A DNA stretch of 64,000 nt, from the NCBI GenBank assembly GCA_958496175.1, contig OY292277.1:48991050-49055049 (forward strand), in the 5' to 3' direction. Origin of the DNA: Sisyra terminalis (Eukaryota > Arthropoda > Insecta > Neuroptera > Sisyridae). Shown here in pieces: positions 3,366 through 64,000 of this stretch (positions are counted from its first letter, which is position 1; the number at the start of each line of letters is the position of its first letter). The position numbers were made by a program, and so were the translations under genes. The notes under the pieces are model-generated. The model was given only the letters and a program-made list of their open reading frames with translations, was not told the origin of the DNA and made no database searches.

Positions 3366-3376
3366 ATCTATAATAA

Positions 3377-4130: not shown

Positions 4131-5008
4131 AATTTACTGTATTGAAATCATAGAATTAAGATCAACAGTTGTTTAAACTTGTTTTTTGTTGTGGTTAAAT
4201 TTATACAGGTTTTTCGGTGAAAAGGACAACAAATTGGAATTAACTACTGGTCATTGTCATTTGATGTTATCTGAAGTTTTTATTCGCACCATTTCAGCAC
4301 CTGAAACATTCAGAGGAGAAAAAATGTTACAATTTAATTTGATATCTTATCAGCAATAAAAATATACCAAAAGTTTAATTATTTGATAAATCATTTGTGA
4401 AAAGATTTTTTTTTCATTGCTTCAACAGTTGTGATACTACTATATTCAAATTTCCGTTTCCCATTAATTTACATTGAAGGCATTAAATTATATTTACATT
4501 TATATTTTGACATTGAGTTTCAAGGGAAGTGCTATAAACATCATATGGGTCAAATCAGGTCCTTTATGCCACGGAAATTCATCAGGAAAGCGAACCATAG
4601 AAAGGGCGAGGAATGCCATAAATTAGAACAAAGCAAACTATTATTTTTAAAAATTATACTTTGTATAATGCAAATAAAATTGTCTATACAATAAAATAAA
4701 TTGAATCAATTCTAAGTCCTTAAATAAAAGTTTTTAGATGCAACTATACTGAGAAAAATTCGTCATTAATTAAAAATTCAAAATCTTTTGAAATTTAACT
4801 ATACTTCTGATGAAGATTTTATTCACGTATCAAATACAAAGGGAAATCTCAAAGTATAGACTCTTTAGTCGGAAAGTTTGTAGATAAACCTTTGTATTAA
4901 TACTGCTGGAAACAATAAAAATAAAATTCACAACTTAAAAAACCGTACGTATATAAGTCTCTATTATTTACAACACTGGAATGAACTCCATTTATTCTCT
5001 TTTTCAAG
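4131..5008. other. No recognised gene; two short unassigned open frames
   Basis: There is an open stretch of about 50 codons after a splice-acceptor-like site near 4209, and a weak 87-codon frame at 4431-4694 containing GKCYKHHMGQIRSFMPRKF. I do not recognise either. They may be relics of the upstream part of the broken SLC22-like gene that follows, but no family motif supports that. Confidence 0.3.
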
Positions 5009-18300: not shown

Positions 18301-21300
18301 TATTTTTTTTTCTTTATTTGCCCCGATATGCCCCCCCCCCCCCTTCCCCTTTTACAGCGCTTTGAAAAAGGGTCCTCAAAAATGAGGAGGCAAACGGGAG
18401 ACAAGTTTTCTCGGAAACCGGAAGTCGGATCATGATTTTCCAAAAAATGTAGGTTTTGGTAATGCGTCTTCTAGGTACTCAACTTCGAAAATCCGAAAAA
18501 AGTTGAAAATTCACAAAATGGCGCGACTTTGAAAAAAAAGTTTAAAAAAACGACCTTTTTTTGGACCTTTCCCCCTCTCCCACTTTGAGGGAGGTGGAGG
18601 TTTGGCCAATTTCAGAGGTTCAGTACCAAGAAGACGTGTTGAACTATAACACTGTCCAGTTTCAAGTCAATCCGTCGGATAGTTTCTGAGAAATCTTGTC
18701 TCCCAGTTTTAAAAAGTTGATTTCGGGAAAAACGCATTTAAAGTTTTTTTAAGATATTTTTTTATGTTATTATCAATTTATTCAATTTTTATCAGGGAAA
18801 ATACATTAGTCAGCTATTCCAATCCTTTTAACACGTTATTCTTGAATGTTATAAGACATTTATGTAAAAAAAAAAATCGATTTTTTTTTTCTGACGGTGA
18901 TCCATCCTTAAGTGGTCCAGGCAATGGCGTAGCTAGGTAACCAAGGGCCCTTGGGCAAATTAACAAATGGGACCCCACTGCTATGTTAACTGATTAGGTT
19001 TTATCAAATGAAAATATGAAATATACTAATACTTTAAAAATGTTAAGCTACTTAAGCTCTTTTTTGTGCACTGCAGGGCAGGTAATAAAAATATTAAACA
19101 GTAACAACATAAATTACAATTAATACTTGGTGTAGGTTTGGCTAATAAAACGAAATAGAGAAGATTTAAGGATTTATTATATACAGGTCGGGCCTACCAA
19201 ATGACTAAATAACAATTATATTTACAAATTTTTCCTAGCTTTAGTTTTCGCAAATGTATCAATGACTTCGTTTAAATCCAGGCTTAATGCGGTTTTGTTT
19301 TCAATTGCTATTAGCGATAAATATCGGAGTCGAGTTTGATCCATATTATTTCTTAAATAATTTTTTATTATTTTTAATTTGCTAAATGATCTTTCAGTTG
19401 CTGCAGAAGTGACAGGAATTGTAAAGAATAATAACACCGCTGTAAATACTTCCATTAGATCGCATTCTAGTACTCCATATTTGCTCATTATTTCCTTACA
19501 TAATTGGTGAACTCCCAACTGAATTTCCAAAAGTTTAGTTCGATCGAGATTTCTGGTAAGAATTCGAGGGCCCCGGGGCACTGCCCCGTCAAACCCCTAG
19601 GTAGCTACGCCACTGGGTCCAGGACTTTTTATATTCTTTACAGCAAATTTTATTGCTTATTATTTTGATACTTTCTCCTTCCCCTGGTATATTTGAACTT
19701 TCCTCTTTATTACTTTACCACATTTACGATTTCCATCTTTCCTATCATCTCCAAATTTTTCTTCTGATCCTTCATCTTAAACGACTTCATTGCCCTATAA
19801 TATCTCAACGAAAATAATATATTTCTTTAAACCAAGACGATTGGGGACTTGGAAAATAATTCACGACGAATTATTACCAATTTACGACCGCAAATACTGT
19901 GGAACCCTCAGCTATTATTTGCCAAATTAAAATGGTATATAATTCTCTTGAAATTAAAGCCAATTAGTGTAATTTTCGTGTTTCAAGTCCATTGTTATGT
20001 TCTATACCATAAACTACTTTTTACTAATATAATGATTTACACAAATCAAATGATTTAAATTAAAAAAAATAAATAAAACGAACAATAAATCATTTCAATT
20101 ACTCACACAAATCAGCACAAAGAAAACACAATGTTTCATAAAAGAAATATTTCAACACAAATCCATTAGCATGTTACAAGAAATCAATAAAATTTAAGCC
20201 AAACACTTCTTTTTTATTTGAGAAGATAAATGTTAACAAAGTTCAACAAAAAAAAATGACAATACCCTGTTCGCTGTGAATGTTTAGAGATCAATTTTAT
20301 AAAAAAAAATACCTTAAATTTTCTTTTGAATCTTTGTTTTATAATAAAACCAAGGCAAATAATTCAAGAGGACTTTTTTTCATGAACCGAAAATGAATTC
20401 TTGTAGTAGTTTCATTGTAACAAAAGCTTCAAGTCGCAGACTACAAATCTCAAAGTTGAGCAATAATTTCATGTAGGTACTTATTTGGACTTAAATTTCA
20501 GCTCTCCAGATAACAATAGAATTAATTTAACTAAATTCATTTAAATGTACGTCAGTTTCTTAACGCGAAATTTACATTCGGTACGTGAAATAAAATATAA
20601 ATAAATTGTAATATTTTCGTTTATATATTTACAAGGTCTTCTATTACGCGAATAATATTTATAAGGCAAAAAATTTACATTTTAGACTGAGTGAAATAAA
20701 AACGAAATATATTCATCAAAGACTCAAAAAGTTATACGTTGTATTTTATGTTCTAAAGACGAATGAAATGAGCTGAAAACATTGAAATAATTATTTAAAT
20801 TAGCAATTATTTTAAGAATATTTTATACATAATATTGTTTTACTAATATTGACTAATATTTTGCTTCTGATAAAATGATATTTATATGAAAGTTCAAAAT
20901 AGGTCCTTTATATTTTTCTTGTACATTAACTCCAGTGATAGCGATTTATCAACAGTGCATACTTGTAAAACTTTTACTACTATTTTCTACACAAAATTAA
21001 GTCGCAATCAAATGCTATCATACTATTTTATAACTAAATTAAAAATAATGCCCTTATGGACCAACATCCAACCCAATATGGCCTAAACGATTTTAGTTTC
21101 GTTGATTCTATTCCGATAATTTCGACATCAAAAATGCATTACAGTTTGGAAGATCAACAGATTACAGTTTGGAAAATATTGGTCAAATCTTTGAAGTATT
21201 CCAAATGGGCAAAAAGATTAATGCTATCTTTATATCACCAAAGAACTGAAAATCAGGAGTTTATTTTTCGTGGAAAAAATGGATTATCTTGGGAACAAAT

Positions 21301-28049: not shown

Positions 28050-28400
28050 ATGTTGATATATTGAATCATCTTTTTAATTCTATTTCTAGTTTTTACAGTT
28101 AATAATATTTTGTTTGTAGGATGAAAATATGACTGGAATTTATTATTTAATTTCTCAATTATAATAGTCTAATGAGTAATATATAGCATTACAGATTCAG
28201 GAGAGTTTAATAAAATCTACTAATGGACAAATGGCCACGCATATAAACTGGTACGTTCTGGATTCGAATTTTACGAAGATTTAAGTATTTTTCTATTTTG
28301 CCCTACAGGACTACTTTCCCAGTAGCAAAGGAACAGTTAAAAATAACTATAAAACAATATACTTATGTATCATTTCTAGATAAATAAATAACATTCCAAG

Positions 28401-29071
28401 CGGTGGCGTAGCTACCTAGGGACTAGGCGGGGCAGTGCCCCGGGGCCCTCGAATCCTTACCAGAAATTTCAATCGAACCGAACTTTTGGAAGTTCACCAA
28501 TTATGTAAGGAAATAATGAGCAAATATGGAGTGCTAGAATGTGACCTAACGGAAGTATTTACAGCAATGTTATTATTCTGTACAATTCCTAACACTTCTG
28601 CAGCAGCTAAAATGTCATTTAGCAAATTAAAAATAATAAAAAATTATTTAAGAAATAATATGGGCCAAACTCGACTCCGATATTTATCGCTAATAGCAAT
28701 TGAAAACTAAACCGCATCAAGCCTGAATTTAAATGAAGTCATTGATACTTTTGCGAAAACTAAAGCTAGGAAAAAATTGTAAATATAATTGTTATTTAGT
28801 CAGTTGGTAGGCTCGAGCTTTATTTAATAAACCCTTGAATCTTCTCTACTTCGTTTTATTAGCCAAACCTACCCCAAGTTTTAATTGTAATTTATGTTGC
28901 TACTGTTTAATATTTTTATTACCTGCCCTGCAGTGCACAAAAAAGAGCTTAAGTAGCTTAGTATTTGTATATTTCATATTTTTATTTGATAAAACCTAAT
29001 CAGTTTACATAGCAGTGGGGCCCCATTTTTTAATTTGCCCAAGGGTCCGTGGTTACCCAGCTACGCCACTG
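28401..29071 (+). mobile_element. Non-autonomous hAT element, copy 5
   Basis: Perfect 8-bp target duplication ATTCCAAG (28393-28400 and 29072-29079). Ends CGGTGGCGTAGCTACCTAGG and CCAGCTACGCCACTG. It contains a 91-codon transposase C-terminal remnant ([17 protein letters not shown]) in which the conserved ERSFS Glu-Arg has decayed. Confidence 0.9.
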
Positions 29072-29084
29072 ATTCCAAGAAGTC

Positions 29085-30275
29085 TGGTCTAAAATTTTAG
29101 ACTGATATCATCAATTTACTATTGAAATTAATTCTTTAAGATGTTTACAAATTAATGTTTTCTAAATGCCTGTTCAAGTAGGTGTTCCTCAAGGAACAAT
29201 TCTGGGCCCACTGCTCTTCATTTTGTATATCGATGATATTTTTAATTGTCTACCTGAAGGGACTCTAGTTTCATATGCGAATGATACAATAATACGCTGC
29301 TCGGGCAGTACTTGGGCTGAAGTCATCCTTATTTTAACTCAATGGTTGATCAAAATTGACTATTGGTTAAGAAAAAATCAGTTGTCTCTCAATATAGATA
29401 AGTCTACGTATATTACGTTTGGTAGTTACATTGATAGCATTCCTGATAATTTCCACCTTAAAATAAATAATTTTGATCTTAAAAGAGTAGTTAATTGTAA
29501 GTATCTGGGACTTATTTTCGATGCGCACATGAAATGGAACTTACATTTCTATGAATTGACAAAAAAATATGGTACTTTTCATTCATATTCTTTAAACTAA
29601 GCAAATGCTTAAGCCCCTCAGTACTAAAAACTATTTATCATGGGTTATTTGAAAATATAATCAAATATGGCATAATTGCATGGGATGGGGCTTATGAAAA
29701 TAGTCTCAGGGTATTGACTACTATTCAAAAAAGATTTATTAATTATTTCATCTCACGCAGTATTGTTGATGTACCTCTTGGTATCAAGGAATCATTTATC
29801 ATAAATGCTTTAACATACTACTATCATGAGTGTAAAGCCCAATATAATAATAAGAATAAGCGGACTAGATCTAATTTGTTAACGCTGCCTAAGACTAAGA
29901 AAACTATCGGCACTAAAAATCCATATCTTATTGCGATAAAAAAATTTAATAAATTGCCCAACCATCTTAAAACACTTAGTTTTAGGCAAAAAAAAAACTG
30001 AGGAAAATATTAATAAGCACAATGGGTATCTTTAGTGACTAAACACTGACATTATTTAATTTTAAATTAAAATTGTATTTATTTATTCTACTGGTAATTC
30101 TGTTTTAACTTTGTATCTTTTTACTTTGTTACTTTTAATTTTGTTAAACTGATTTAAATATATGCAATTGTACATTGCATTACATAACAATTGTAATATT
30201 TCAGTTCTATGTACAGATGCTTTGCATCTCTGTAGAATGCCTACTGGAAGTAAAATAATAATTTAAAAAAAAAGC
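29085..30275 (+). pseudogene. 5'-truncated non-LTR retrotransposon (LINE) relic
   Basis: The frame at 29166-29600 is the C-terminal half of a reverse transcriptase: VQVGVPQGTILGPLLFILYI, then SYANDT, then NCKYLGLIFDAHMKW. The catalytic F/Y-A-D-D box reads YAND, so the first catalytic Asp is lost. A frameshift near 29600 moves the thumb and C-terminal region (YGIIAWDGAYENS, KRFINYFISRSIVD) into another frame up to 30001. The 3' end is T/A-rich and closes with an A-rich tail (AAATAATAATTTAAAAAAAAA region). It is dead by truncation, frameshift and active-site loss. The clade (Jockey/R1-like) is uncertain. Confidence 0.85.
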
Positions 30276-35558: not shown

Positions 35559-36505
35559 TGTAATGTAAATATGAATTTAAATTATTAACTATTCGTTAAG
35601 TAAATCAAATTAGTAATAACTCCTCATTTTCTGACATTTACGTGGGCATGGGGCGCATGCCTCATCGTAAACCAATCGTCGTGAAGCCTATTGAATCATT
35701 TGAACTGATTTGAACTTTTGCAAATGATGTAATTTTTTTTACATGAATATTCATAAATTGTGTTGGAAATCCATAAGAAAATAAGTAGTGATTTAAATAA
35801 TATGATAACGAGGTATTGTACGCAAGTATTAACTTTTTACACTAACGTAATTGATTCATTACTTAAACCATAATCATTATTACATTATAAATGCATAATT
35901 GTTGCAATTGATTTTCCGGTATAACATTTGTTAAAGAATAGAGAGAGATATATTGTAAAATTAATAGCAATTTGTTGAAATATTAAAGCCTATATTCATT
36001 TTGTAGATTCGTAAAACTTAAGAAAAAGCCCAACTTTGATTTTATTTCAGAAGATTTCAGAGCTAATCAAGCTTCTAGAAAAACCTTTTTACCCTCAAAT
36101 CATTAACGCTTAGTGCTACAATCTCTACTAAAACTTATTCCTCTTAAAATATCCTGAAAATTTTACCTAAAAACATTAACTTCGTGGTATTTTACAAATT
36201 TTACAAGACTTATAAATGCATAACTGTTGCAACTGATTTTCCGGTATTACATTTGTTATAGAATAAAGAGAGATGTTTTGGGAAATTAATAGCAGTTTGT
36301 TGAAACATTAAAGCCTATATTCATTTCGTAAAACTTAAGAAAAAGCCCAACTTTTATTTTATTCTATTGAAGACTCCAGAGCTAATCAAGTTTCTAGAAA
36401 AACCTTTTTACCCTCAAATTATTAACTCTTAGTGCTATAATTTCTTCAAAAACTTATTCCTCTCAAAATATCCGGAAAATTTTACCTAAAATCATTGACT
36501 CCGTG
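35559..36505. repeat. EXOC1 upstream region with a ~320-bp tandem duplication
   Basis: Units at about 35888-36204 and 36211-36505 (continuing after the hAT at 37558) share TTGATTTTCCGGTAT, TTAATAGCA, ACTTAAGAAAAAGCCCAACT, TCTAGAAAAACCTTTTTACC and GTGGTATTTTACAAA. The hAT insertion at 36506 lies within the second unit. The EXOC1 promoter should lie between 35559 and about 35880, but no specific motif is assignable. Confidence 0.75.
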
Positions 36506-37557
36506 CAGTGGCGTAGCCAGGTAACCAAGAGCCCTGGGGCAAATTAAAACATGGGACCCCACCGCTATGTAAACTGATTAGGTTTTATCAAATAAAAATA
36601 TGAAATATACAAATACTTTAAAAATGCTAAGCTACTTAAGCTCTTTTTTGTGCACTGCAGGACAGGTAATAAAAATATTAAACAGTTATAACATAAATTA
36701 CAATTAATACTTGGTGTAGGTTTGGCTAATAAAACGAATTAGAGAAGATTCAAGGGTTTATTATATAAAGGTCGGGCCTACCATCTGACAAAATAACAAT
36801 TATATTTACAATTTTTTCCTAGCTTTAGTTTTCGCAAAAGTATCAATGACTTCGTTTAAATCCAGGCTTGATGCAGTTTTGCTTTCAATTGCTATTAGCG
36901 ATAAATGGCGGAGTCGAATTTGGCCCATATTATCAAATTTATCGGCTAGATCCTTGGGAAATTAAAACGGAAAGTTAAGGATGTATATGTATTATGTCTC
37001 TAACGTGAGAAGAAATGTGAAAAAAATTTTGTCCTGTGTGAAAAATGACACCCGCAATATCGTTTCAAAGTTTCAAAAAGGATTATTTTCAAGTTCATAA
37101 AAAGTATATAAGGGATGGTTTCTTTCCCTAAAATTGAGCAGAATTTTTATGACTGGATCATGTTTACCCAAATTGCATGAAAAAAAAAACAATTTAAAGG
37201 CTAGATCCTCGGGAAATTAAAACGGAAAGTTAAGGATGTATAAGCACATGCACCAAATTTGCCCTTAAAATTGGTCGTTTTTGAGGGATGCGATTTCCTT
37301 ATAAGGATATATTCCATCAACGGATTATCAAACAATGCTCTAACGTGAGAAGAAATGTGAAAAAATTTTAACATTGCGGTAAATACTTCCGTTAGGTCGC
37401 ATTCTAGCACTCCATATTTGCTCATTATTTCCTTACATAATTGGTGAACTTCCAAACATTCAGTTCGATCGAGACTTCTGGTAAAGATTCGAGAGCTCCC
37501 TGAGCTTGATGGCCCCGGGGCACTGCCCCGCCTAGCCCCTAGGTAGCTACGCCACTG
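36506..37557 (-). mobile_element. Non-autonomous hAT element, copy 6, carrying satellite DNA
   Basis: Ends CAGTGGCGTAGCCAGG and CCTAGGTAGCTACGCCACTG. The target duplications ACTCCGTG and ACTCTGTG match at 7 of 8 positions. About 85 bp of the usual interior (from the transposase RSFSK region) is missing. In its place lies a satellite fragment at 36933-37368, so a chimeric open frame spans the right junction. Confidence 0.9.
36933..37368 (-). repeat. Dispersed fragment of the ~340-bp satellite
   Basis: About 1.3 units of the satellite found at 48.97-64 kb lie here, including CTAGATCCTTGGGAAATTAA (twice), AAATTTGCCCTTAAAATTGG, ATAAGGATATATTCCATCAA and AGAAGAAATGTGAAAAAATT. The first unit has an internal deletion. 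It differs from array units at many sites (for example CTAACGTGAG for CTAACTCGAG), so it is an old or separate subtype. Junctions with the hAT are at CATATTAT|CAAATTTATC and AATTTT|AACATTGCGG. Confidence 0.88.
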
Positions 37558-48137: not shown

Positions 48138-48971
48138 CGATTTTTTTCCCAAATAAGAAAAAGGGTGAAAATAAAAATTAAATTTTCTAATTACTTATTC
48201 TTTGATTTTAATATTTTTAAAATAACTGAATAAAACCATCTGTACTGTTCCTTTTTCCCGTCTGACAATTATCCAATTTTATAATAGGGACAAATCTATT
48301 AATTTTTGCTTTTTTCCAGGAAAAGTAAAGTAATTTTGTCATAAGCCATAGTAATTTTAATTATTCTTTATAAGAAAAAGCCTACCATCAATTACCGGAA
48401 TAGATTTATTAAAAGCTGCACTTATGCAACCCATGTAGCAGTGATGTAAGTAGATTGCATCATTATTTGATTTTCACAATATTTCTTATATTGTATGACT
48501 AAGGCAATTAGAGATTTAAAACTCAAAATAATTAATCAATAACGTGGTTAAGTATTCGATAAAGGAAAAAACTAATGATAAATAATTAAATTATGTGAAA
48601 CATTCATTGCAATTTAAAATTCATTATTAATATTACAAAAGAACAGTCGCTATTGAAAAAAGAAGAAAAAGACAAAAAATTATTAGAATATTTTCGAGAT
48701 AATCATATTTTACGAATAAAAATTTTTAAGAACTCTAAAAACTTGCAAAAAAAAATTTAATAAATGAGTCTTAACAACATAAATAGTTTAAATAGGCTCG
48801 TGGAATTATCAGCGAAGTTGAAGTTAAAAGTTTGAATACCTATAGATCAATGCGATGATAGCAATATGTTTTAACACTAAACACAATTTACCTTTACAAT
48901 AATTTTGCCAAAAACATTCGGTTTAATTTTAGGAATAAAACCACCACTTTTGTACCACGTTATGTACAATT
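48138..48971. other. AT-rich spacer before the satellite array
   Basis: No gene or element recognised. It borders the outer end of the left satellite array, so any target duplication of the large palindromic element would start here. Confidence 0.4.
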
Positions 48972-51900
48972 TAAAAATGTCCTTTTTGAAAATTTGAAAT
49001 GATGTTGCTAGTGTCCTTTTGCACACAAGACAATGATTTTTTCATATAACATTTCATGTAAGGGAATTGTTTAATAATCTGTTGCTAAAGTTAGCCCTCA
49101 TAAGGAAAAGTCACCCTTAAAAATTGACCCATTTCCGGGTTAATTTGGTACATGTTTTTTCACCTCCTTAAATTCCCGTTTTGAATTCCCCTGAATGTAG
49201 GAAATATTTGCAAATTATTTTTATGCAATTACATTAATGATGATTCAATCTAACATATCAAGCTCAGTTTCAGCGAAAAAAAACATCCCTTATATCAGTT
49301 TAATGCACTTGAAAATTGTCCTTTTTGAAACTTTGAAATGATATTGTGAGTGTCCTTTTGCACACAGGACAAACTTTTTTTCACATTACATTTCACGATA
49401 GGGCATTGTTTCATAATCCGTTGCTTGAATATATCCTTATAAGGAAATCGCACCCCTCGAAAACGACCAATTTTAAGGGCAAATTTGGTGCATGTGTTTT
49501 AACATCCTTAACTTTCCGTTTTAATTTCCCAAGGATCTAGCCGTTAAATTTGAATTATTTTCTTGCAGTTCGATTAAGCATGATTTAGACTTAAATATTC
49601 TGCTCAATTTTAGGGAAAGAAACCATCCCTTATATCCTTTTTATGAACTTGAAAATAATCCTTTTTGAAACTTTGAAACGATATTGCGGGTGTCCTTTTG
49701 CACACAGGACAAATTTGTTTTCACATTTATTTTTGAGTTAGAGCATTGATTGATAATCCGTTGATAGAATATATCCTTATAATGAAATCGCACCCCTCAA
49801 AAACGACCAATTTTAAGGGCAAATTTGGTGCATGTGTTCTAACATCCTTAACTTTCCGATTTAATTTCCCTAGGATCTAGCCGTTAAATTTCAATTATTT
49901 TCATGCAATTCGGTTGAGCATGATTAAGTCTTAAGTACTCTGCTCAATTTTAGGGAAAGAAACCATCCTTTATATCCTTTTTATGAACTTGAAAATAGTC
50001 CTTTTTGAAACTTTGAAACGATATTACGGGTGTCCTTTTGCACACAGGACAAAAATTTTTTCACATTTCTTCTCGAGTTAGAGCATTGATTGATAATCCG
50101 TTGATAGATTATATCCTTATAATGAAATCGCACCCCTCAAAAACGACCAATTTTAAGGGCAAATTTGGTGCATGTGTTTTAACATCCTTAATTTTCCGAT
50201 TTAATTTCCCAAGGATCTAGCCGTTAAATTTCAATTATTTTCATGCAATTCGGTTGAGCATGATTCAGACTTAAATATTCTGCTCAATTTTAGGGAAAGG
50301 AACCATCCCTTATATCCTTTTTATGAACTTGAAAAAAGTCCTTTTTGAAACTTTTAAACGATATTGCGGGTGTCCTTTTGCACACAGGACAAAAATTTTT
50401 TCACATTTCTTCTCGAGTTAGAGCATTGATTGATAATCCGTTGATAGAATATATCCTTATAATGAAATCGCACCCCTCAAAAACGACCAATTTTAAGGGC
50501 AAATTTGGTGCATGTGTTCTAACATCCTTAACTTTCCGTTTTCATTTCCCAAGGATCTAGCCGTTGAATTTGAATTATTTTCATGCAATTCGGTTGAGCA
50601 TGATTCAGCCTTAAATATTCTGCAGAGTTTTAGGGAAAGAAACCATCCCTTATATTCTTTTTATGAACTTTAAAATCGTCCTTTTTGAAACTTTTAAACG
50701 ATATTACGGGTGTCCTTTTGCACACAGGACAAAAATTTTTTCACATTTCTTCTCGAGTTAGAGCATTGATTGATAATCCGTTGATAGAATATATCCTTAT
50801 AATGAAATCGCACCCCTCAAAAACGACCAATTTTAAGGGCAAATTTGGTGAATGTGTTTTAACATCCTTAATTTTCCGATTTATTTCCCAAGGATTAAGC
50901 CGTAAAATTTGAATTATTTTCATGCAATTTGGTTAGGCATGATTCAGACTTAAATATTCTGCTCAATTTTAGGGAAAGAAACCATCCCTTATATCCTTTT
51001 TATGAACTCGAAAAAAGTCCTTTTTGAAACTTTGAAACGATATTGCGGGTGTCCTTTTGCACACATGACAAAATTTTTTTCACATTTCTTTTCGAGTTAG
51101 AACATTGATTGATAATCCGTTGATAGAATATATCCTTATAATGAAATCGCACCCCTTAAAAACTACCAATTTTAAGGGCAAATTTGGTGCATGTGTTTTA
51201 ACATCCTTAATTTTCCGATTTAATTTCCCAAGGATTTAGCCGTAAAATTTGAATTATTTTCATGCAATTTGGTTAAGCATGATTCAGACTTAAATATTCT
51301 GCTCAATTTTGAGGAAAGAAACCATCCCTTATATCCTTTTTATGAACTTGAAAATAGTCCTTTTTGAAACTTTTAAACGATATTGCGGGTGTCCTTTTGC
51401 ACACAGGACAAAAATTTTTTCACATTTCTTCTCGAGTTAGAGCATTGATTGATAATCCGTTGATAGAATATATCCTTATAATGAAATCGCACCCCTCAAA
51501 AACGACCAATTTTATGGGCAAATTTGGTGCATGTGTTCTAACATCCTTAACTTTCCGTTTTCATTTCCCAAGGATCTAGCCGTTGAATTAGAATTTTTTT
51601 CATGCAATTCGGTTAAGCATGATTAAGTCTTAAGTACTCTGCTCAATTTTAGGGAAAGAAACCATCCCTTATATCCTTTTTATGAACTTGAAAATAGTCC
51701 TTTTTGAAACTTTGAAACGATATTACGGGTGTCCTTTTGCACACAGGACAAAAATTTTTTCACATTTCTTCTCGAGTTAGAGCATTGATTGATAATCCGT
51801 TGATAGAATATATCCTTATAATGAAATCGCACCCCTCAAAAACGACCAATTTTATGGGCAAATTTGGTGCATGTGTTCTAACATCCTTAACTTTCCGTTT

Positions 51901-52440
51901 TCATTTCCCAAGGATCTAGCCGTTGAATTAGAATTTTTTTCATGCAATTCGGTTAAGCATGATTAAGTCTTAAGTACTCTGCTCAATTTTAGGGAAAGAA
52001 ACCATCCCTTATATCCTTTTTATGAACTTGAAAATAGTCCTTTTTGAAACTTTGAAACGATATTACGGGTGTCCTTTTGCACACAGGACAAAATTTTTTT
52101 CACATTTCTTTTCGAGTTAGATCATTGATTGATAATCCGTTGATAGAATATATCCTTATAATGAAATCGCACCCCTCGAAAACGACCAATTTTAAGGGCA
52201 AATTTGGTGTATGATTTTTCAACTCCTTAACTTCCCGTTTCGATTTCCCCCGGATCTAGGAAAAATTTGCAAATTATTTTTATGCAGTTACATTAAGGAT
52301 GATTCAATCTAAAATATCAAGCTCAGTTTCTGCGAAAAAAACCATCCCTGATATCATTTTTATGCACTTGAAAATTATCCTTTTTGAAACTTTGAAATGA
52401 TATTGTGAGTGTCCGTTTATGCACAAGACAAAAAATAATT
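48972..52440 (+). repeat. Satellite array, ~340-bp unit, left (about 10 units)
   Basis: Units recur every 340 bp. Each contains TTTTTGAAACTTTGAAACGA, GTGTCCTTTTGCACACAGGA, TTGATAATCCGTTGATAGAA, TATCCTTATAATGAAATCGC, CAATTTTAAGGGCAAATTTG and CCAAGGATCTAGCCGTT. Central units are very alike; those starting near 51,364 and 51,704 are almost identical. The outermost and innermost units belong to a different, more diverged subtype with GCAAATTATTTTTATGCA and ATCAAGCTCAGTTTC. Most units carry the same open frame of 60-71 codons, but 340 is not divisible by three and nothing indicates translation. Confidence 0.95.
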
Positions 52441-52810
52441 TCTGTTTATAATCCTCCTCCTGGCTTAATTTTATAAATCCTCAATAAAAGTTATCAGGAA
52501 ATATCATTGCACTTATCCGTTTATTTTCGAATTGTTTTAGTTAGGCAACCATTTGTACATGAATGTTGTTATGTTAGGCTGCAGCATTAGTCCGTAGTTT
52601 AAAACTTGATGTAAAATGGACGTATGACTTGTTTTATTAATTTAATTCAATGTAAATTTACAGATTGAAGTTACCTGAAAATTGAGGACCAGAGCAGTTT
52701 TGTTGGGATTGAAGAAATTTTCATCCTTTTGGCAGATTAATGTTTAGTAAGTGCTATTGTTGTTGAAACTTGTAAATATTGTTCTAACTGAATTTTTCAC
52801 TACCTACAGG

Positions 52811-53025
52811 GAAGCAGATCGAAGACATTAGAGAATTATTCATTGGATTTGAATTGTTCATCATTTCCTTATGGACTTTCGAAGAATGGAAGCGCAGCGT
52901 TCGAGAATCTTCAATCAAATTCATCAAGGATCCATCATTTTCCACAATTGGTATCTACCGAGAAGAATACCAATGGATTTACTACAACAATTAGTGGTGT
53001 AAATTTTGTTTTAATAATTCAGTGA
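52811..53025 (+). other. Open frame with splice-like signals in the left arm
   Basis: After an acceptor-like CCTACAG at about 52,804-52,810, about 70 codons are open to TGA. They include LDLNCSSFPYGLSKNG and LVSTEKNTNGFTTTISG. A GTAAGT lies upstream at about 52,747. The identical frame occurs in the right arm (59,434-59,252, minus). Composition is less AT-rich than the surroundings. I recognise no family; it might be the last exon of a small transcript of the element. Confidence 0.35.
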
Positions 53026-53756
53026 AGTAAAGTGATAAAGTGGTTTAAGTGATAAATAATCAATATATCAGAAAAATCAAATGCTATTTTATTAACCTAA
53101 TATTTTATATATGCTTGTAGCAATTGATACTTTTACATAATTTATATAAACAATTGTAAATATGCAAAAAACTATTATTGTTTTACTGTATTTATATTTA
53201 ATTGATATTTAACATTAATAAATTTTATATAAAAGAATACATTGTTTCAATTCGATTTACCGCACCCATCCTCTTGAATTTTATATTTCAGATTTTTTTT
53301 TTACAGTTAGAATACATATAAGAGTTAAATTAATAAGTAATAATGTAAGTATAATAAAAGATATAATAATATAGGTAGGTATAGTAAAATTAATAAGGTA
53401 AGGAAGTTAGGTAGATAGTTTTTCTATAACTTATTGAATAATTCGATAAAAGCCACTATCGAAAAATATCTTAACTTTTCCATGTCCATAATCGTTTTTT
53501 TCGATATTAATAAATGTCTTTATTTTATGAAGAAATTCTATTGAAATACAATTTTGTTTTTACGAAAAAAAAGGATCATGGATCTTAAAATGTTGCAATT
53601 TTATTACACAACTTTTCCAACTTTAACATGGAGCAGCTATGGTTCGAATATGGTTGGGAAATTCTAATTATTTCGATCGAAAGCATTTTTCATTTTTCTA
53701 CAAATCTCATTAGAATAGTTTATATATGAGTTTTAACGTCATTTACATATATCATA

Positions 53757-53838
53757 TGATAGCCGCATCGCTAAGGTCGCCGCCACTACCACCGGAGCTG
53801 AGGTCCCTGGTTCGAATCCCGAAGGGGTAAGTGTTTTT
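53757..53838 (+). ncRNA. tRNA-like pol III module T1 (left arm)
   Basis: An A-box-like TAGCCGCATCGCTAAGG and a perfect B box GGTTCGAATCC (53,809) are spaced as in a tRNA gene and followed by a T6 run (53,833-53,838), a pol III terminator. It does not fold obviously into a complete tRNA, so it is more likely tRNA-derived. Confidence 0.6.
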
Positions 53839-53943
53839 TCTTAAATATTATAATTGATTTCTATTCCTTACAGCTTATCCTGTCACTAATTAACATTAAT
53901 AATTGTTTCCAGACATTGTATCATCGAAATATTCGATCGACAG

Positions 53944-53965
53944 TTCCAACCTTTCGGGGTTGGAA
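53944..53965. other. Stable hairpin TTCCAACC-TTTCGG-GGTTGGAA
   Basis: A perfect 8-bp stem with a UUCG-like loop, set within longer weaker pairing (CGATCGA outside, ATCA/TGAT further out). The same hairpin, with one change or none, occurs at 55,516-55,537, 56,739-56,760 and 58,312-58,333. Confidence 0.7.
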
Positions 53966-54020
53966 ATGATCGATCGTTGATGCAATATATTTTTCATTTT
54001 ATTTTTGCTCATTGGTTTTG

Positions 54021-54079
54021 TGACGTCACTAAATTTCATATTTATGACGTCACACATACGTCACCATCCAATGACGTCA
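54021..54079. promoter_or_regulatory. Cluster of three TGACGTCA palindromes (left arm)
   Basis: TGACGTCA occurs at 54,021, 54,045 and 54,072, with two more at 55,443 and 55,456. The sequence is a full CRE/ATF-type site. The mirrored arm has five more. Factor binding is inference. Confidence 0.5.
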
Positions 54080-55640
54080 TTCTCGAAAAGTGATCGAATT
54101 TTCGATTGTCATGAAATAGTATACCGGGAATGGCTTAGTTACGTCACGGGAGGCCTAAAAAACATATCCCACTGTCAATTTTTTTGGTTTTTTTTCAAGA
54201 AAAATTTCTGCCCGATTTTTGAAAAATCCCAAAAATAGGCCAAATCTGCCGATATTTTGCACTTTTTTCAACTTTAACGCCGTTTTAAGCGATAACTATC
54301 GATCGTAGGTTAACGATAGTAGGCTCATTCGATAGCGCTTGAATTACTCTATCGATGGTGTAAATTTGGTCCCGGAAAACCTTAAGGAAAAAAAGTTTTT
54401 TTTTCAACTTGTCAGAAATTTCATTTCGTCGACTAAATGCACGTCGAATTTATGAATTTTTTTTTGTCGATTTTATTAATGAAATTTACACCATAGATGC
54501 ATTACATTACCATCAAAGCATATATATATATAAATCTCAACTTTTCGATATCGTTAATGGTTTTTTCGATTTTTAAATTCACCTATTGTGCGAGCTAATG
54601 TTATTTAAATAAAAATTAGTTTTGTTAGAAAAAGGATCAAGGACCTTAAAATGTCACAACTTTATTCAAAACTTTGCCAAACGTCACACGGAGCCGCTTT
54701 GGTGAAAATATTTCCGGAAAATTCCAAGAAAATCTCAAGGTCAAATCTTTTTCACCAGATCGATTTTCATGGAATTTTCCGGAAAAATTTAAACCATAGG
54801 TTCTCCATGTTAAGATCGGAAAAGATGTCAAATCACATTGCATACTTTTAATGTCCTTGATCCTTTTTTACCATAAAACATAAATGTATTCAAATGAAGT
54901 TACGTCACAACATTTTAATCTTTAATATCGAAAAAAACGATGAAGGGGATCGAAAAGTTGAGATCTTTTGGTATAGGGTTTTTGTTCGTAACATTCTGTA
55001 GCTATGGTGCGAATTTCATGGGAAAATGTGAATAAAAAATAAACAAAAAAATTTTTATAAAATCGACGAGCATCGGGTCGACGAAATGAAATTTCTGAGG
55101 AGTTGAAAAAAAAATTTTTTCCCTTTAAGCTTTTCCGGGACCAAATTTACACCATCGATAGAGTAATTCAAGCGCTATCGAATAAGCTAGCTATCGATAA
55201 CCTACGATCGTTAGTTTTCGCTCAAATTGACGTTAAAGTTGGAAAAAGTGTAAAAAAGTGTCAATTTTGACCAGTTTTTCAGATTTCTTGGGATTTTGGC
55301 CAAAAAATTTTCCCAAAAAAAAATGAAAAATTCAGAAAAAGGATATGATTTTTAGGCCTCCCGCAGCATCCTTATGCCATACACCAAATCCTATTTTACT
55401 AAAATCGAAAATTCGATATCCTCCCCCCCTTTTTTTCGGGAATGACGTCATTTGATGACGTCACATATGCGGGATCAAAAACAAAAATTTATAACTCATC
55501 GATCGATCGATCCATTTCCAACCCCGAAAGGCTGGAACTTCTCGATCGAATATTTCGTCCTTACAAACTCTGGAAACAAGGATTAATGTTATTACATGAT
55601 ATTATATGCTGTAAGGAATAATTATTAATTATAATATTTG

Positions 55641-55735
55641 AAAAAAAACCTGGGTCCTGGTCCATCCGGGAATCGAACTTGTGATCTTCCGCTCGTGAGG
55701 TGCCACTTATATCCACATTGCCACGTGAGTTATAT
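55641..55735 (-). ncRNA. tRNA-like pol III module T2 (left arm)
   Basis: On the minus strand, A-box-like TGGCAATGTGGATA, B box AGTTCGATTCCC and an eight-T terminator (A8 at 55,641 on plus) follow in order. It faces T1 across the older internal axis. Confidence 0.6.
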
Positions 55736-56035
55736 GTATTGTTCGTTAAAACTTATATTTAAACAATTCTTAATCAATCGAGACTTTGAAAATTTTTTCG
55801 ATCAAAATAATTTTGTAAGTAAGTGCCCAACAATTTTGGATCCAAACATATTTAAACTAAAATTGGTAGAGATGTCTCAATTTTTTAATATTTTTCTACA
55901 TTATTTAATTTTCTCAAAGTATTGATTAATCCAAATACTAATTATTTATTATTAATATTTGAGTTTAAAAAACTTAAAACTGAAAATTATACGACGCCGA
56001 AATGCGTTTAGAATTTCATTGGAAGCTTTGAGTTC

Positions 56036-56245
56036 TCCTTAAAATCCTATAGATGGCAGTAAAACTTTAAAATTATTTTCAACTAAATTTTTTATTAGTA
56101 CGGATCATAGCGCTGAGGTGCCGTAGTAAACTTAAGTTGGTTCAAATCTCAATTAGTTTTAAGAGTTTAGATATAGAGTCGTAGATGGCGACAAAAACAT
56201 AATTTGTATTTTAAGATTTCGTTGCCATCTATAGTAATATGCGCT
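56036..56245. repeat. Central spacer of the large palindrome, with tRNA-like T3
   Basis: The spacer is a poorly conserved continuation of the inverted repeat. On the plus strand at 56,105-56,160 a third tRNA-like relic shows TAGCGCTGAGG (A-box-like), then GGTTCAAATCTC (B-box-like) and TTTT. The main axis falls inside it. Confidence 0.5.
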
Positions 56246-56540
56246 GAACTCAAAGCTTCCAATGAAATTCTAAACGCATTTCGGCGTCGTATAATTTTCA
56301 GTTTTAAGTTTTTTAAACTCAAATAATTATTAATAAATAATTAGTATTTGGATTAATCAATACTTTGAGAAATTAAAATAATGTAGAAGAACATTTAAAC
56401 GTTAAGTAATCTTTACCAATTTTAGTTTAAATATGTTTGGATCCAAAATTGTTGGGCACTTACAATTATTTTGATCGAAAAAATTTTCAAAGTCTCGATT
56501 GATTAAGAATTGTTTAAATATAAGTTTTAACGAACAATAC

Positions 56541-56635
56541 ATATAACTCACGTGGCAATGTGGATATAAGTGGCACCTCACGAGCGGAAGATCACAAGTT
56601 CGATTCCCGGATGGACCAGGACCCAGGTTTTTTTT
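56541..56635 (+). ncRNA. tRNA-like pol III module T2' (right arm)
   Basis: Mirror of the module at 55,641-55,735: TGGCAATGTGG, B box GTTCGATTCC at 56,598, terminator T8 at 56,628. Confidence 0.6.
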
Positions 56636-58436
56636 CACATATTATAATTAATAATTATTCCTTACAGCATATAATATCATGTAATAACATTAATCCTTGT
56701 TTCCAGAGTTTGTAAGGACGAAATATTCGATCGAGAAGTTCCAGCCTTTCGGGGTTGGAAATGGATCGATCGATCGATGAGTTATAAATTTTTGTTTTTG
56801 ATCCCGCATATGTGACGTCATCAAATGACGTCATTCCCGAAAAAATGAGGGGGAGGATATCGAATTTTCGATTTTAGTAAAATAGGATTTGGTGTATGGC
56901 ATAAGGATGCTGCGGGAGGCCTAAAAATCATATCCTTTTTCTGAATTTTTCATTTTTTTTTGGGAAAATTTTTTGGCCAAAATCCCAAGAAATCTGAAAA
57001 ACTGGTCAAAATTGACACTTTTTTACACTTTTTCCAACTTTAACGTCAATTTGAGCGAAAACTAACGATCGTAGGTTATCGATAGCTAGCTTATTCGATA
57101 GCGCTTGAATTACTCTATCGATGGTGTAAATTTGGTCCCGGAAAAGCTTAAGGGGAAAAAATTTTTTTTTCAACTCCTCAGAAATTTCATTTCGTCGACC
57201 CGATGCTCGTCGATTTTATAAAAATTTTTTTGTTTATTTTTTATTCACATTTTCCCATGAAATTCGCACCATAGCTACAGAATGTTACGAACAAAAACCC
57301 TATACCAAAAGATCTCAACTTTTCGATCCCCTTCATCGTTTTTTTCGATATTAAAGATTAAAATGTTGTGACGTAACTTCATTTGAATACATTTATGTTT
57401 TATGGTAAAAAAGGATCAAGGACATTAAAAGTATGCAATGTGATTTGACATCTTTTCCGATCTTAACATGGAGAACCTATGGTTTAAATTTTTCCGGAAA
57501 ATTCCATGAAAATCGATCTGGTGAAATAGATTTGACCTTGAGATTTTCTTGGAATTTTCCGGAAATATTTTCACCAAAGCGGCTCCGTGTGACGTTTGGC
57601 AAAGTTTTGAATAAAATTGTGACATTTTAAGGTCCTTGATCCTTTTTCTAACAAAACTAATTTTTATTTAAATAACATTAGCTCGCACAATAGGTGAACT
57701 TAAAAATCGAAAAAACCATTAACGATATCGAAAAGTTGAGATTTATATATATATATGCTTTGATGGTAATGTAATGCATCTATGGTGTAAATTTCATTAA
57801 TAAAATCGACAAAAAAAAAATTCATAAATTCGACGTGCATTTAGTCGACGAAATGAAATTTCTGACAAGTTGAAAAAAAAACTTTTTTTCCTTATGGTTT
57901 TCCGGGACCAAATTTACACAATCGATAGAGTAATTCAAGCGCTATCGAATGAGCCTACTATCGTTATCCTACGATCGATAGTTATCGCTTAAAACGGCGT
58001 TAAAGTTGAAAAAAGTGCAAAATATCGGCAGATTTGGCCTATTTTTGGGATTTTTCAAAAATCGGGCAGAAATTTTTTTTGAAAAAAAACCAAAAAAATT
58101 GACAGTGGGATATGTTTTTTAGGCCTCCCGTGACGTAACTAAGCCATTCCCGGTATACTATTTCATGACAATCGAAAATTCGATCACTTTTCGAGAATGA
58201 CGTCATTGGATGGCGACGTATGTGTGACGTCATAAATGTGAAATTTAGTGACGTCACTAAACCAATGAGCAAAAATAAAATGAAAAATATATTGCATCAA
58301 CGATCGATCATTTCCAACCCCGAAAGGTTGGAACTGTCGATCGAATATTTCGATGATACAATGTCTGGAAACAATTATTAATGTTAATTAGTGACAGGAT
58401 AAGCTGTAAGGAATAGAAATCAATTATAATATTTAA

Positions 58437-58520
58437 GAAAAAACACTTACCCCTTCGGGATTCGAACCAGGGACCTCAGCTCCGGTGGTAGTGGCGGCGA
58501 CCTTAGCGATGCGGCTATCA
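58437..58520 (-). ncRNA. tRNA-like pol III module T1' (right arm)
   Basis: Mirror of 53,757-53,838, with B box GGTTCGAATCC on the minus strand and an A6 (T6) terminator. Confidence 0.6.
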
Positions 58521-59850
58521 TATGATATATGTAAATGACGTTAAAACTCATATATAAACTATTCTAATGAGATTTGTAGAAAAATGAAAAATGCTTTCGA
58601 TCGAAATAATTAGAATTTCCCAACCATATTCGAACCATAGCTGCTCCATGTTAAAGTTGGAAAAGTTGTGTAATAAAATTGCAACATTTTAAGATCCATG
58701 ATCCTTTTTTTTCGTAAAAACAAAATTGTATTTCAATAGAATTTCTTCATAAAATAAAGACATTTATTAATATCGAAAAAAACGATTATGGACATGGAAA
58801 AGTTAAGATATTTTTCGATAGTGGCTTTTATCGAATTATTCAATAAGTTATAGAAAAACTATCTACCTAACTTCCTTACCTTATTAATTTTACTATACCT
58901 ACCTATATTATTATATCTTTTATTATACTTACATTATTACTTATTAATTTAACTCTTATATGTATTCTAACTGTAAAAAAAAAATCTGAAATATAAAATT
59001 CAAGAGGATGGGTGCGGTAAATCGAATTGAAACAATGTATTCTTTTATATAAAATTTATTAATGTTAAATATCAATTAAATATAAATACAGTAAAACAAT
59101 AATAGTTTTTTGCATATTTACAATTGTTTATATAAATTATGTAAAAGTATCAATTGCTACAAGCATATATAAAATATTAGGTTAATAAAATAGCATTTGA
59201 TTTTTCTGATATATTGATTATTTATCACTTAAACCACTTTATCACTTTACTTCACTGAATTATTAAAACAAAATTTACACCACTAATTGTTGTAGTAAAT
59301 CCATTGGTATTCTTCTCGGTAGATACCAATTGTGGAAAATGATGGATCCTTGATGAATTTGATTGAAGATTCTCGAACGCTGCGCTTCCATTCTTCGAAA
59401 GTCCATAAGGAAATGATGAACAATTCAAATCCAATGAATAATTCTCTAATGTCTTCGATCTGCTTCCCTGTAGGTAGTGAAAAATTCAGTTAGAACAATA
59501 TTTACAAGTTTCAACAACAATAGCACTTACTAAACATTAATCTGCCAAAAGGATGAAAATTTCTTCAATCCCAACAAAACTGCTCTGGTCCTCAATTTTC
59601 AGGTAACTTCAATCTGTAAATTTACATTGAATTAAATTAATAAAACAAGTCATACGTCCATTTTACATCAAGTTTTAAACTACGGACTAATGCTGCAGCC
59701 TAACATAACAACATTCATGTACAAATGGTTGCCTAACTAAAACAATTCGAAAATAAACGGATAAGTGCAATGATATTTCCTGATAACTTTTATTGAGGAT
59801 TTATAAAATTAAGCCAGGAGGAGGATTATAAACAGAAATTATTTTTTGTC

Positions 59851-62800
59851 TTGTGCATAAACGGACACTCACAATATCATTTCAAAGTTTCAAAAAGGAT
59901 AATTTTCAAGTGCATAAAAATGATATAAATGATATAAGGGATGGTTTTTGTCGCAGAAACTGAGCTTGATATTTTAGATTGAATCATCCTTAATGTAACT
60001 GCATAAAAATAATTTGCAAATTTTTCCTAGATCCGGGGGAAATCGAAACGGGAAGTTAAGGAGGTGAAAAATCATACACCAAATTTGCCCTTAAAATTGG
60101 TCGTTTTTGAGGGGTGCGATTTCATTATAAGGATATATTCTATCAACGGATTATCAATCAATGCTCTAACTCGAGAAGAAATGTGAAAATTTTTTTGTCC
60201 TGTGTGCAAAAGGACACCCGCAATATCGTTTAAAAGTTTCAAAAAGGACTATTTTCAAGTTCATAAAAAGGATATAAGGGATAGTTTCTTTCCCTAAAAT
60301 TGAGCAGAATATTTAAGTCTAAATCATGCTTAATCGAATTGCATGAAAATAATTGTAATTTAACGGCTAGATCCTTGGGAAATTAAATCGGAATGTTAAG
60401 GATGTTAGAACACATGCACCAAATATGCCCTTAAAATTGGTTGTTTTTGAGGGGTGCGATTTCCTTATAAGGATATATTCTATCAACGGATTATCAATCA
60501 ATGCTCTAACTCGAGAAGAAATGTGAAAAAAATTTTGTCCTGTGTGCAAAAGGACACCCGCAATATCGTTTAAAAGTTTCAAATAGGACTATTTTCTAGT
60601 TCATAAAAAGGATATAAGGGATGGTTTCTTTCGTTGAAATTGAGCAGAATATTTAAGTCAGAATCATGCTTAATCGAATTGCATGAAAATAATTCAAATT
60701 TTACGGCTAAATCCTTGGGAAATTAAATCGGAAAGTTAAGGATGTTAAAACACATGCACCAAATTTGCCCTTAAAATTGGTCGTTTTTGAGGGGTGCGAT
60801 TTCATTATAAGGATATATTCTATCGACGAATTATCAATCAATGCTCTAACTCGAGAAGAAATGTGAAAAAAATTTTGTCCTGTGTGCAAAAGGACACCCG
60901 CAATATCGTTTAAAAATTTCAAAAAGGACAATTTTCAAGTTCATAAAAAGGATATATGGGATGGTTTCTTTCGTTGAAATTGAGCAGAATATTTAAGTCT
61001 GAATCATGCTTAATCGAATTGCATGAAAATAATTCAAATTTAACGGCTAGATCCTTTGGAAATTAAATCGGAAAGTTAAGTATGTTAGAACACATGCACC
61101 AAATTTGCCCTTAAAATTGGTCATTTTTGAGGGGTGCGATTTCATTATAAGGATATATTCTATCAACGGATTATCAATCAATGCTCTAACTCGAGAAGAA
61201 ATGTGAAAAAATTTTTGTCCTGTGTGCAAAAGGACACCCGCAATATCGTTTAAAAGTTTCAAAAAGGACTATTTTCAAGTTCATAAAAAGGATATAAGGG
61301 ATGGTTTCTTTTCCTAAAATTGAGCAGAATATTTAAGACTGAATCATGCTAAACCAAATTGCATTAAAATAATTCAAATTTTACGGCTAAATCCTTGGGA
61401 AATTAAATCGGAAAGTTAAGGATATTAAAACACATGCACCAAATTTGCCCTTAAAATTGGTCGTTTTTGAGGGGTGCGATTTCATTATAAGGATATATTC
61501 TATCAACGGATTATCAATCAATGCTCTAACTCGAGAAGAAATGTGAAAAAAAAAATTGTCCTGTGTGCAAAAGGACACCCGCAATATCGTTTCAAAGTTT
61601 CAAAAAGGACTATTTTCAAGTTCATAAAAAGGATATAAGGGATGGTTTCTTTCGTTGAAATTGAGCAGAATATTTAAGTCTGAATCATGCTTAATCGAAT
61701 TGCATGAAAATAATTCAAATTTAACGGCTAGATCCTTGGGAAATTAAATCGGAAAGTTAAGTATGTTAGAACACATGCACCAAATTTGCCCTTAAAATTG
61801 GTCATTTTAGAGGGATGCGATTTCATTATAAGGATATATTCTATCAACGGATTATCAATCAATGCTCTAACTCGAGAAGAAATGTGAAAAAATTATTGTC
61901 CTGTGTGCAAAAGGACACCCGCAATATCGTTTAAAAGTTTCAAAAAGGACTATTTTCAAGTTCATAAAAAGGATATAAGGGATGGTTTCTTTCCCTAAAA
62001 TTGAGCAGAATATTTAAGACTGAATCATGCTAAACCAAATTGCATTAAAATAATTCAAATTTTACGGCTAAATCCTTGGGAAATTAAATCGGAAAGTTAA
62101 GGATGTTAAAACACATGCACCAAATTTGCCCTTAAAATTGATCGTTTTTGAGGGATGCGATTTCATTATAAGGATATATTCTATCAACGGATTATCAATC
62201 AATGCTCTAACTCGAGAAGAAATGTGAAAAAAATTTTGTCCTGTGTGCAAAAGGACACCCGCAATATCGTTTAAAAGTTTCAAAAAGGACTATTTTCAAG
62301 TTCATAAAAAGGATATAAGGGATGGTTTCTTACCCTAAAATTGAGCAGAATATTTAAGACTGAATCATGGTTAACCAAATTGCATTAAAATAATTCAAAC
62401 TTTACGGCTAAATCCTTGGGAAATTAAATCGGAAATTTAAGGATGTTAAAACACATGCACCAAATTTGCCCTTAAAATTGGTCGTTTTTGAGGGGTGCGA
62501 TTTCATTATAAGGATATGTTCTATCAACGGATTATCAATCAATGCTCTAACTCGAGAAGAAATGTGAAAAAAATTTTGTCCTGTGTGCAAAAGGACACCC
62601 GCAATATCGTTTAAAAGTTTCAAAAAGGACTATTTTCAAGTTCATAAAAAGGATATAAGGAATGGTTTCTTTCGTTAAAATTGAGCAGAATATTTAAGTC
62701 TGAATCATGCTTAATCGAATTGCAAGAAAATAAATCAAATTTTACGGCTAAATCCTTGGGAAATTAAATCGGAAAGTTAAGTATGTTAGAACACATGCAC

Positions 62801-64000
62801 CAAATTTGCCCTTAAAATTGGTCGTTTTTGATGGGTGCGATTTCATTATAAGGATATATTCTATCAACGGATTATCAATCAATGCTCTAACTCGAGAAGA
62901 AATGTGAAAAAAATTTTGTCCTGTCTGCAAAAGGACACCCGCAATATCGTTTAAAAGTTTCAAAAAGGACTATTTTCAAGTTCATAAAAAGGATATAAGG
63001 AATGGTTTCTTTCCCTAAAATTGAGCAGAATATTTAAGACTGAATCATGGTTAACCAAATTGCATTAAAATAATTCAAATTTTACGGCTAAATCCTTGGG
63101 AAATTAAATCGGAAATTTAAGGATGTTAAAACACATGCACCAAATTTGCCCTTAAAATTGGTCGTTTTTGAGGGGTGCGATTTCATTATAAGGATATATT
63201 CTATCAACGGATTATCAATCAATGCTCTAACTCGAGAAGAAATGTGAAAAAAATTTTGTCCTGTGTGCAAAAGGACACCCGCAATATCGTTTCAAAGTTT
63301 CAAAAAGGATTATTTTCAAGTTCCTAAAAAGGATATAAGGGATGGTTTTTTTCCCTAAAATTGAGCAAAATAATTAAGTCTAAATCATGCTTAATCGAAC
63401 TGCATGAAAATAATTCAAATTTAACGGCTAGATCCTTGGGAAATTAAATCGGAAAGTTAAGTATGTAAGCGCACATGCACCAAATTTGCCCTTAAAATTG
63501 GTCGTTTTTGAGGGGTGCGATTTCATTATAAGGATATATTCTATCAACGGATTATCAGTCAATGCTCTAACTCGAGAAGAAATGTGAAAAAAATTTTGTC
63601 CTGTGTGCAAAAGGACACCCGCAATATCGTTTAAAAGTTTCAAAAAGGACTATTTTCAAGTTCATAAAAAGGATATAAGGAATGGTTTCTTTCGTTAAAA
63701 TTGAGCAGAATATTTAAGTCTGAATCATGCTTAATCGAATTGCAAGAAAATAAATCAAATTTTACGGCTAAATCCTTGGGAAATTAAATCGGAAAGTTAA
63801 GTATGTTAGAACACATGCACCAAATTTGCCCTTAAAATTGGTCGTTTTTGATGGGTGCGATTTCATTATAAGGATATATTCTATCAACGGATTATCAATC
63901 AATGCTCTAACTCGAGAAGAAATGTGAAAAAAATTTTTTCCTGTGTGCAAAAGGACACCCGCAATATCGTTTAAAAGTTTCAAAAAGGACTATTTTCAAG
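59851..64000 (-). repeat. Satellite array, ~340-bp unit, right (at least 12 units, continues)
   Basis: The same unit as at 48,972-52,440 but in reverse orientation. The innermost unit again is the diverged subtype. Higher-order structure is visible. A variant block (TTGCAAGAAAATAAATCAAA with GATGGGTGCG) recurs at 62,720 and 63,740, 1,020 bp or three units apart. Another (ATGCTAAACCAAATTGCATT) recurs at 61,347 and 62,028, two units apart. It runs off the end of the window. Confidence 0.95.

Follow-up and report, generated by a model that had tools for sequence, protein, structure and literature searches.

How did a palindrome with arms of about 3.6 kb, capped at both ends by satellite arrays, come to be part of the genome of the neuropteran Sisyra terminalis, and what keeps its arms nearly identical? 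We addressed these questions by computational analysis of a stretch of 64,000 nucleotides (GenBank assembly GCA_958496175.1, contig OY292277.1, positions 48,991,050 to 49,055,049 of the forward strand), hereafter the window, numbered from its first nucleotide. From position 48899 to the window end, the locus comprises a satellite array, an arm, a spacer, the inverted arm, and the inverted array. With confidence that is about even, the sequence comparisons favor a real inverted duplication, old and nested, that formed in at least two rounds where a satellite array ends and whose arms would have been kept alike by gene conversion.

Results

The left arm (52435 to 56073, plus strand) aligned with the right arm (59842 to 56208, inverted; an inverted copy on the minus strand) over 3,641 columns at 98.737% identity, with 38 mismatches, 3 gap openings, and a score of 6,462 bits. 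The palindrome axis falls at ∼56,140, within a spacer of ∼134 bp (56074 to 56207). No spacer symmetry above chance was detected by alignment and shuffling: 56067 to 56140 scored 17 against 56141 to 56214, a value reached by 287 of 300 shuffles. The left array (48899 to 52434, plus strand) holds ∼10.4 units of 340 bp according to Tandem Repeats Finder (TRF), profile search, and monomer identities, with TRF itself counting 10.2 units from 48974. The right array (59843 to 64000, minus strand) was followed by TRF and profile search over no fewer than 12.2 of the 340-bp units and runs past the window end, which truncates the count, so that 12.2 against 10.2 units is no measure of the difference in unit number stated in the initial annotation. 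Both the ∼3.6-kb inverted arms around ∼56,140 and the capping of each by the same 340-bp satellite in opposite orientations, as proposed in the initial annotation, were borne out by these alignments and searches. The start of the left satellite, previously placed at 48972, was moved to 48899, where homology begins with a decayed partial unit in the profile search; part of the score of this match comes from the adjoining first unit.

Each arm proved to be an old palindrome itself. In the left arm, this inner palindrome occupies 53472 to 55989, with its axis at ∼54,750: 53472 to 54734 aligned with the inverted 55989 to 54762 at a score of 797 and 68.4% identity with gaps counted, against a shuffle maximum of 47 (n = 30). 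Inverted alignments within each arm agree with the nesting described earlier. We refer to the first half as module u (53472 to 54748, plus strand), to the inverted second half as u′ (54749 to 55989, minus strand), and to the outer part of the left arm, delimited by the arm alignment, as region X (52435 to 53471, plus strand). Global alignment of u with u′ gave 75.8% identity over ungapped columns. Read across both arms, the order of the modules is u, u′, u, u′, with a copy of X at either end. Profile searching with the module recovered four copies of full length together with weaker partial matches, none of them outside the palindrome, and module u had no match in positions 1 to 52400 at an E value of 10. 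Within the window, region X occurred nowhere but in the arms, if two matches at E 8.8 are set aside. Likeness between u and u′ was highest at 54278 to 54457 (82 to 92%), above most of the module, with a further step of 83% at 53934 to 53990. The tip of the inner palindrome (54690 to 54810) is a strong predicted hairpin (−49.5 kcal/mol; z = −8.05). As a microRNA precursor this tip was rejected, its best Rfam match reaching 26.9 bits against 95 required.

If the locus grew by inverted duplication, a first event would have added an inverted copy to a module of ∼1.27 kb and so created the inner palindrome u-u′, whose halves are now ∼76% alike. In a second step, the block of satellite border, X, and u-u′ would have been duplicated again in inverted orientation, via fold-back or template-switch repair. 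This second step is supported by a chimeric satellite unit common to both array borders (described below).

A different origin is suggested by the same layout, since long, near-identical inverted repeats with tandem repeats are typical of foldback transposons. The initial annotation had named Foldback/Galileo elements as the nearest described class, and the arms, being long, inverted, non-coding, and associated with tandem repeats, do fit it. A non-autonomous foldback transposon of the Tetris/Rehavkus/FB-like kind, moved by a transposase encoded elsewhere, is retained here as a strong though less probable alternative origin. The arrays would then represent the tandem domain of the terminal repeat, the arms its inner domain, and 48899 to 49318 its outer domain, an assignment to which we give the same standing. 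Copy number within the window speaks against such an element: besides the absence of u from positions 1 to 52400, the whole arm found no further copy, only two matches of 22 bp and 26 bp (E 0.004) by BLAST against 1 to 48900, with 0 matches in one random control sequence. Nor did a transposase trace above the cut-off appear in any of 10 open stretches scanned with Pfam, out of the 84 of at least 50 amino acids listed for 48972 to 64000; no family reached its cut-off, and no MULE-type transposase was found. The earlier statement that no transposition protein is present held for these 10 stretches, but a non-autonomous copy would be without transposase in any case. A weak hAT-like RNase-H match (E 0.0091; 16.6 bits against a cut-off of 27) was rejected. 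A 69-amino-acid open stretch of u′ returned no candidate from a protein collection. An exact satellite word and an exact arm word each had 0 occurrences in viral contigs, the satellite word had 0 in genome contigs, and the arm matched no phage; these collections consist of viruses and prokaryotes, and such negatives say little.

Differences between the arms turned out to be zoned, not scattered as had been claimed. The 1,668 bp that adjoin the arrays (52351 to 54018) contained 0 differences. The middle zone (54019 to 55638, ∼1.6 kb) carried 15 differences, comprising 14 substitutions and 1 indel (∼0.9%). In the axis-proximal zone (55813 to 56073 in the left arm, plus strand), 24 substitutions fell within the 254 bp from 55813 to 56066 (∼9.4%), in addition to indels. 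With the axis zone excluded, the probability that 15 differences placed uniformly in 3,462 bp leave a stretch of 1,668 bp untouched is 0.00088. The inner paralogue allowed 11 of the 14 middle-zone substitutions to be polarized, 8 as derived in the right arm and 3 in the left; the remaining 3 had no paralogous base, and single polarizations are fallible because the paralogue is only ∼76% alike.

The zoned pattern fits what arm-to-arm conversion would leave, the axis region excluded, and we infer such conversion from the zoned identity. The gradient may also have other sources, mutation at an axis prone to breakage among them. In a third step of the proposed history, the arms would copy each other by gene conversion, with a recent tract having wiped out differences over the 1.67 kb beside the arrays. 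An older exchange would have left ∼0.9% divergence in mid-arm, and the last 250 bp by the axis, pairing poorly and prone to breakage, would have escaped and eroded. The age of the duplication was gauged from the axis zone alone.

Arms that are partly 100% identical also raise the question of an assembly or library artefact, in which one arm was read back on itself or two haplotypes were joined in opposite orientation; the 0.9% mid-arm divergence could in that case be a haplotype difference. We consider this unlikely, given that ∼9.4% divergence is confined to the axis-proximal 254 bp, that the spacer is non-symmetrical, that both arms carry apparently private derived changes, and that the arrays differ in unit composition. 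Arms arising from a fold-back read or from a single-molecule chimera would differ by random error alone and would lack an eroded axis zone. The initial annotation had likewise used arm differences to argue against an artefact. The apparently private changes in both arms and the eroded axis make the case stronger than was claimed.

We compared 20 satellite units (10 left and 10 right), excluding one 680-bp right double unit and the end pieces. The core units L3 to L9 and R1 to R9 shared 92 to 99% identity, and L2 was 89 to 91% identical to the core. The outermost left unit was 71 to 75% identical to the core and 79 to 81% identical to the two innermost full units, L10 and R11. These two units are chimeric, with a core-type first half and an edge-type second half, and the switch lies at about unit position 170 in both. 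In steps of 34 columns against the core consensus, their first halves were 91 to 100% identical in 10 of 10 steps; their second halves were 59 to 76% identical in 9 of 10 steps and 91% in one, the partial last step being excluded. Left and right units were at most 96% alike, while pairs within an array reached 99%, so each array seems to homogenize by itself. On the duplication history, the arrays would have evolved apart, each by unequal exchange within itself. The chimeric unit, with one switch point at both borders, indicates that arm and array border were duplicated together, unless the border was copied across later. Judged from its sequence, it shows common origin or later copying of the array borders, whichever reading is preferred.

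The outer edge of the left array (48899 to 49318) is decayed and distinct; the core is homogeneous, and the array fades outward through a decayed unit piece. Over ∼340 bp, three comparisons of the left edge scored 71, 61, and 67, where the shuffles reached at most 80, 87, and 74, so that 0 of 3 rose above them. Over the 90 bp beside the array, the score was reached in 0 of 2000 shuffles for each of two core-type tails and in 8 of 2000 for L1. The same 90 bp gave an unconvincing result against the two border-unit tails (81 of 2000 and 117 of 2000 shuffles). This fade into a decayed unit is what satellite edges ordinarily look like. Conservation is lowest in the outermost left units, whereas it would be expected to persist at the ends of a transposon. 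However, the left-edge unit does not decide the matter, because in Tetris, too, the tandem repeats are accompanied by an outer domain of different sequence.

The satellite was also found apart from the arms, again in disfavor of a transposon: a hAT-like, non-autonomous element contains a separate piece of ∼435 bp, ∼1.3 units (36933 to 37369, minus strand), which BLAST, alignment, and profile search all identified. Together, the fading left edge and this separate piece favor inverted duplication. The piece begins at unit position 54, and the arrays meet the arms at 57 to 58, at most about 4 bases away. A common break-prone spot may underlie the two, which is only suggestive from two events. Telomeric repeats of Chironomus are also ∼340 bp in length.

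The initial annotation described tRNA-like modules in the arms. Pattern matching located an RNA polymerase III (Pol III) B-box motif, GGTTCGAATCC, in u (53809 to 53819, plus strand) and a B-box-like motif, AGTTCGATTCC, in u′ (55669 to 55679, minus strand), with right-arm copies of the B-box-like motif at 56597 to 56607 (plus strand) and of the B-box motif at 58458 to 58468 (minus strand). The pattern RGTTCRANTCC had 4 matches in the window, all within the arms, where 0.31 were expected for the window, and none of 100 shuffles gave as many; this pattern was picked after the motifs had been read, and the 4 matches amount to 2 independent motifs doubled by the palindrome. A run of T follows each of these two motifs after 15 to 21 bases. 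Rfam returned no tRNA match even at E 10 for two stretches submitted alone, and ARAGORN called no tRNA at its default threshold. On this evidence, the B-box pattern is present and enriched as the annotation implied, but the tRNA part of the description was not upheld: the modules are B-box-bearing and without recognized tRNA genes. At a lowered threshold, ARAGORN made 210 calls across the window, which were discarded as noise, and the listed calls stop short of the palindrome. A U4 match in the modules (Rfam E 0.2; 15.5 bits against 46 required) was rejected, as were other sub-threshold matches (E 1.8 to 8.4). By eye, the modules may bear some likeness to tRNAs for arginine and for leucine/serine.

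By analogy, these motifs could point to a chromatin or RNA-silencing element, in which B-box inverted repeats act as a barrier beside satellite heterochromatin or a hairpin gives rise to small interfering RNAs (siRNAs). All 4 B-box matches lie in the arms, the inner-axis hairpin is strong, and fission yeast has B-box inverted-repeat barriers. The parallel with a centromere or barrier of the fission-yeast type, where tRNA genes or B boxes in inverted repeats adjoin heterochromatic repeats with CENP-A or TFIIIC, is one of sequence only. We nevertheless hold such an element to be very improbable: the B-box pattern is post hoc, Rfam gave no tRNA match, a recognized gene lies only ∼6 kb away, arrays of just 10 to 12 units were seen, and any palindrome is expected to form a strong hairpin. 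Hardly more than speculative is the extended proposal of an animal dyad cassette, in which the B-box inverted repeats would organize opposed satellite arrays as a TFIIIC-type barrier or siRNA source and conversion would preserve the symmetry for that purpose.

The remainder of the window, which is AT-rich as a whole (30.4% GC over 64 kb), contains gene pieces at 33.0 to 42.8 kb that encode exocyst Sec3, SCY1-like protein 2 (SCYL2), and a TM2-domain protein (TM2D2); the nearest recognized gene is ∼6 kb from the palindrome and its arrays. Among the best 120 of 994 matches, TM2D2 reached 81% identity at the top, with 78% over 82% in a mayfly, 67% in a mantis shrimp, and 66% in an ant. Among the best 120 of 239 matches, SCYL2 reached 77% over 95% in Homalodisca and 85% over 70% in Plutella. 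By these two proteins alone, the host would be an insect or close to the insects. A foldback element of ∼1.05 kb is present in two copies (24353 to 25403 and 10972 to 12002, ∼91% alike) and in fragments, including a partial one at 10213 to 10454; the copy at 24353 to 25403 is 89.9% self-complementary end to end. A 690-bp non-autonomous element whose termini are close to CAGTGGCG occurs six times in the window (2149 to 2830, 6164 to 6823, 14502 to 15207, 18921 to 19616, 28393 to 29074, and 36505 to 37557). Flank duplications of 8 bases, like the target duplications of the hAT superfamily, are readable in at least two of these, at 6164 and 18921, and we take the element to be hAT-like. In the copy at 36505 to 37557, part of the interior is replaced by the ∼435 bp of satellite. 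The window also holds a tandem repeat at 3369 to 4137 (423-bp unit, 1.8 copies) and a reverse transcriptase fragment at 29166 to 29600 (RVT_1, E 1e−11).

Discussion

Several observations weigh against a nested inverted duplication and in favor of a foldback transposon. The architecture is typical of foldback transposons and agrees with that of Tetris, Rehavkus-1_TC, and a 9,021-bp copy of Galileo. The two copies and fragments of the ∼1.05-kb foldback element indicate that such elements have spread in this genome. Homogenization of their terminal repeats would yield identity patterns of a similar kind, as well as a chimeric unit shared by both borders, and what looks like a satellite edge on the left, with its distinct unit, could instead be a foldback terminal repeat's outer domain. 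Moreover, the spacer was searched for a sequence trace of the duplication mechanism, and none was seen. Under nested inverted duplication, the locus likely has no role beyond that of a structural repeat of the foldback class.

Three features that are usually described separately meet at this locus: arrays of a satellite, arms of the foldback type, and gene conversion between arms. Much of its history is readable in one place, in the form of two palindrome generations, a shared chimeric border unit, and zoned identity. If other copies exist, they would make up a foldback family carrying the 340-bp satellite, like Tetris and Rehavkus-1_TC with theirs. If this is a single locus, it would be a small natural case of long palindromes persisting and eroding from the axis.

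The initial annotation considered the combination unlike any known. The whole was indeed not found described in the open-access literature searched, yet it is less foreign than was supposed, given Tetris, Galileo, and Rehavkus-1_TC. Tetris of Drosophila virilis has terminal inverted repeats of up to 1,735 bp made up of an outer domain, ∼220-bp tandem repeats, and an inner domain. Like the present locus, it has long non-coding inverted repeats holding tandem repeats of satellite size, and satellite arrays are also reported outside the element. It shows target duplications of 8 to 10 bp in several copies; the arms described here differ from its terminal repeats in being themselves palindromes. 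In Rehavkus-1_TC of Tribolium castaneum, which is 9.5 kb long, the inverted termini likewise hold a satellite; its unit is 164 bp, in contrast to 340 bp here, and Rehavkus elements have a MULE-related transposase and 9-bp target duplications. Galileo copy 112, the longest in Drosophila willistoni at 9,021 bp, consists of two terminal repeats only (4,246 and 4,680 bp), which contain direct tandem repeats, and lacks a transposase segment. It differs from the present locus in being flanked by identical target duplications, in being one of 191 described copies, and in belonging to the P superfamily.

Two systems outside the foldback class offer further comparison. Primate X-chromosome palindromes share large inverted repeats, arm-to-arm gene conversion, and an unstable spacer. 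They differ in a median arm of 37 kb and in about 1 arm difference per 2,200 bases, and the accessible part of that account does not mention satellite borders. The macro-dyad satellites of Tribolium madens resemble the present locus in their head-to-head arrays and diverged inversion site, but there the subarrays meet directly and form megabase regions, whereas here 7.4 kb of other sequence intervenes. In the open-access literature searched, no description was found of a four-module alternation with B boxes inside two arms. Palindromic arms with tandem repeats are already known, and the alternation of four old modules in two arms, together with B boxes, is a variant of them.

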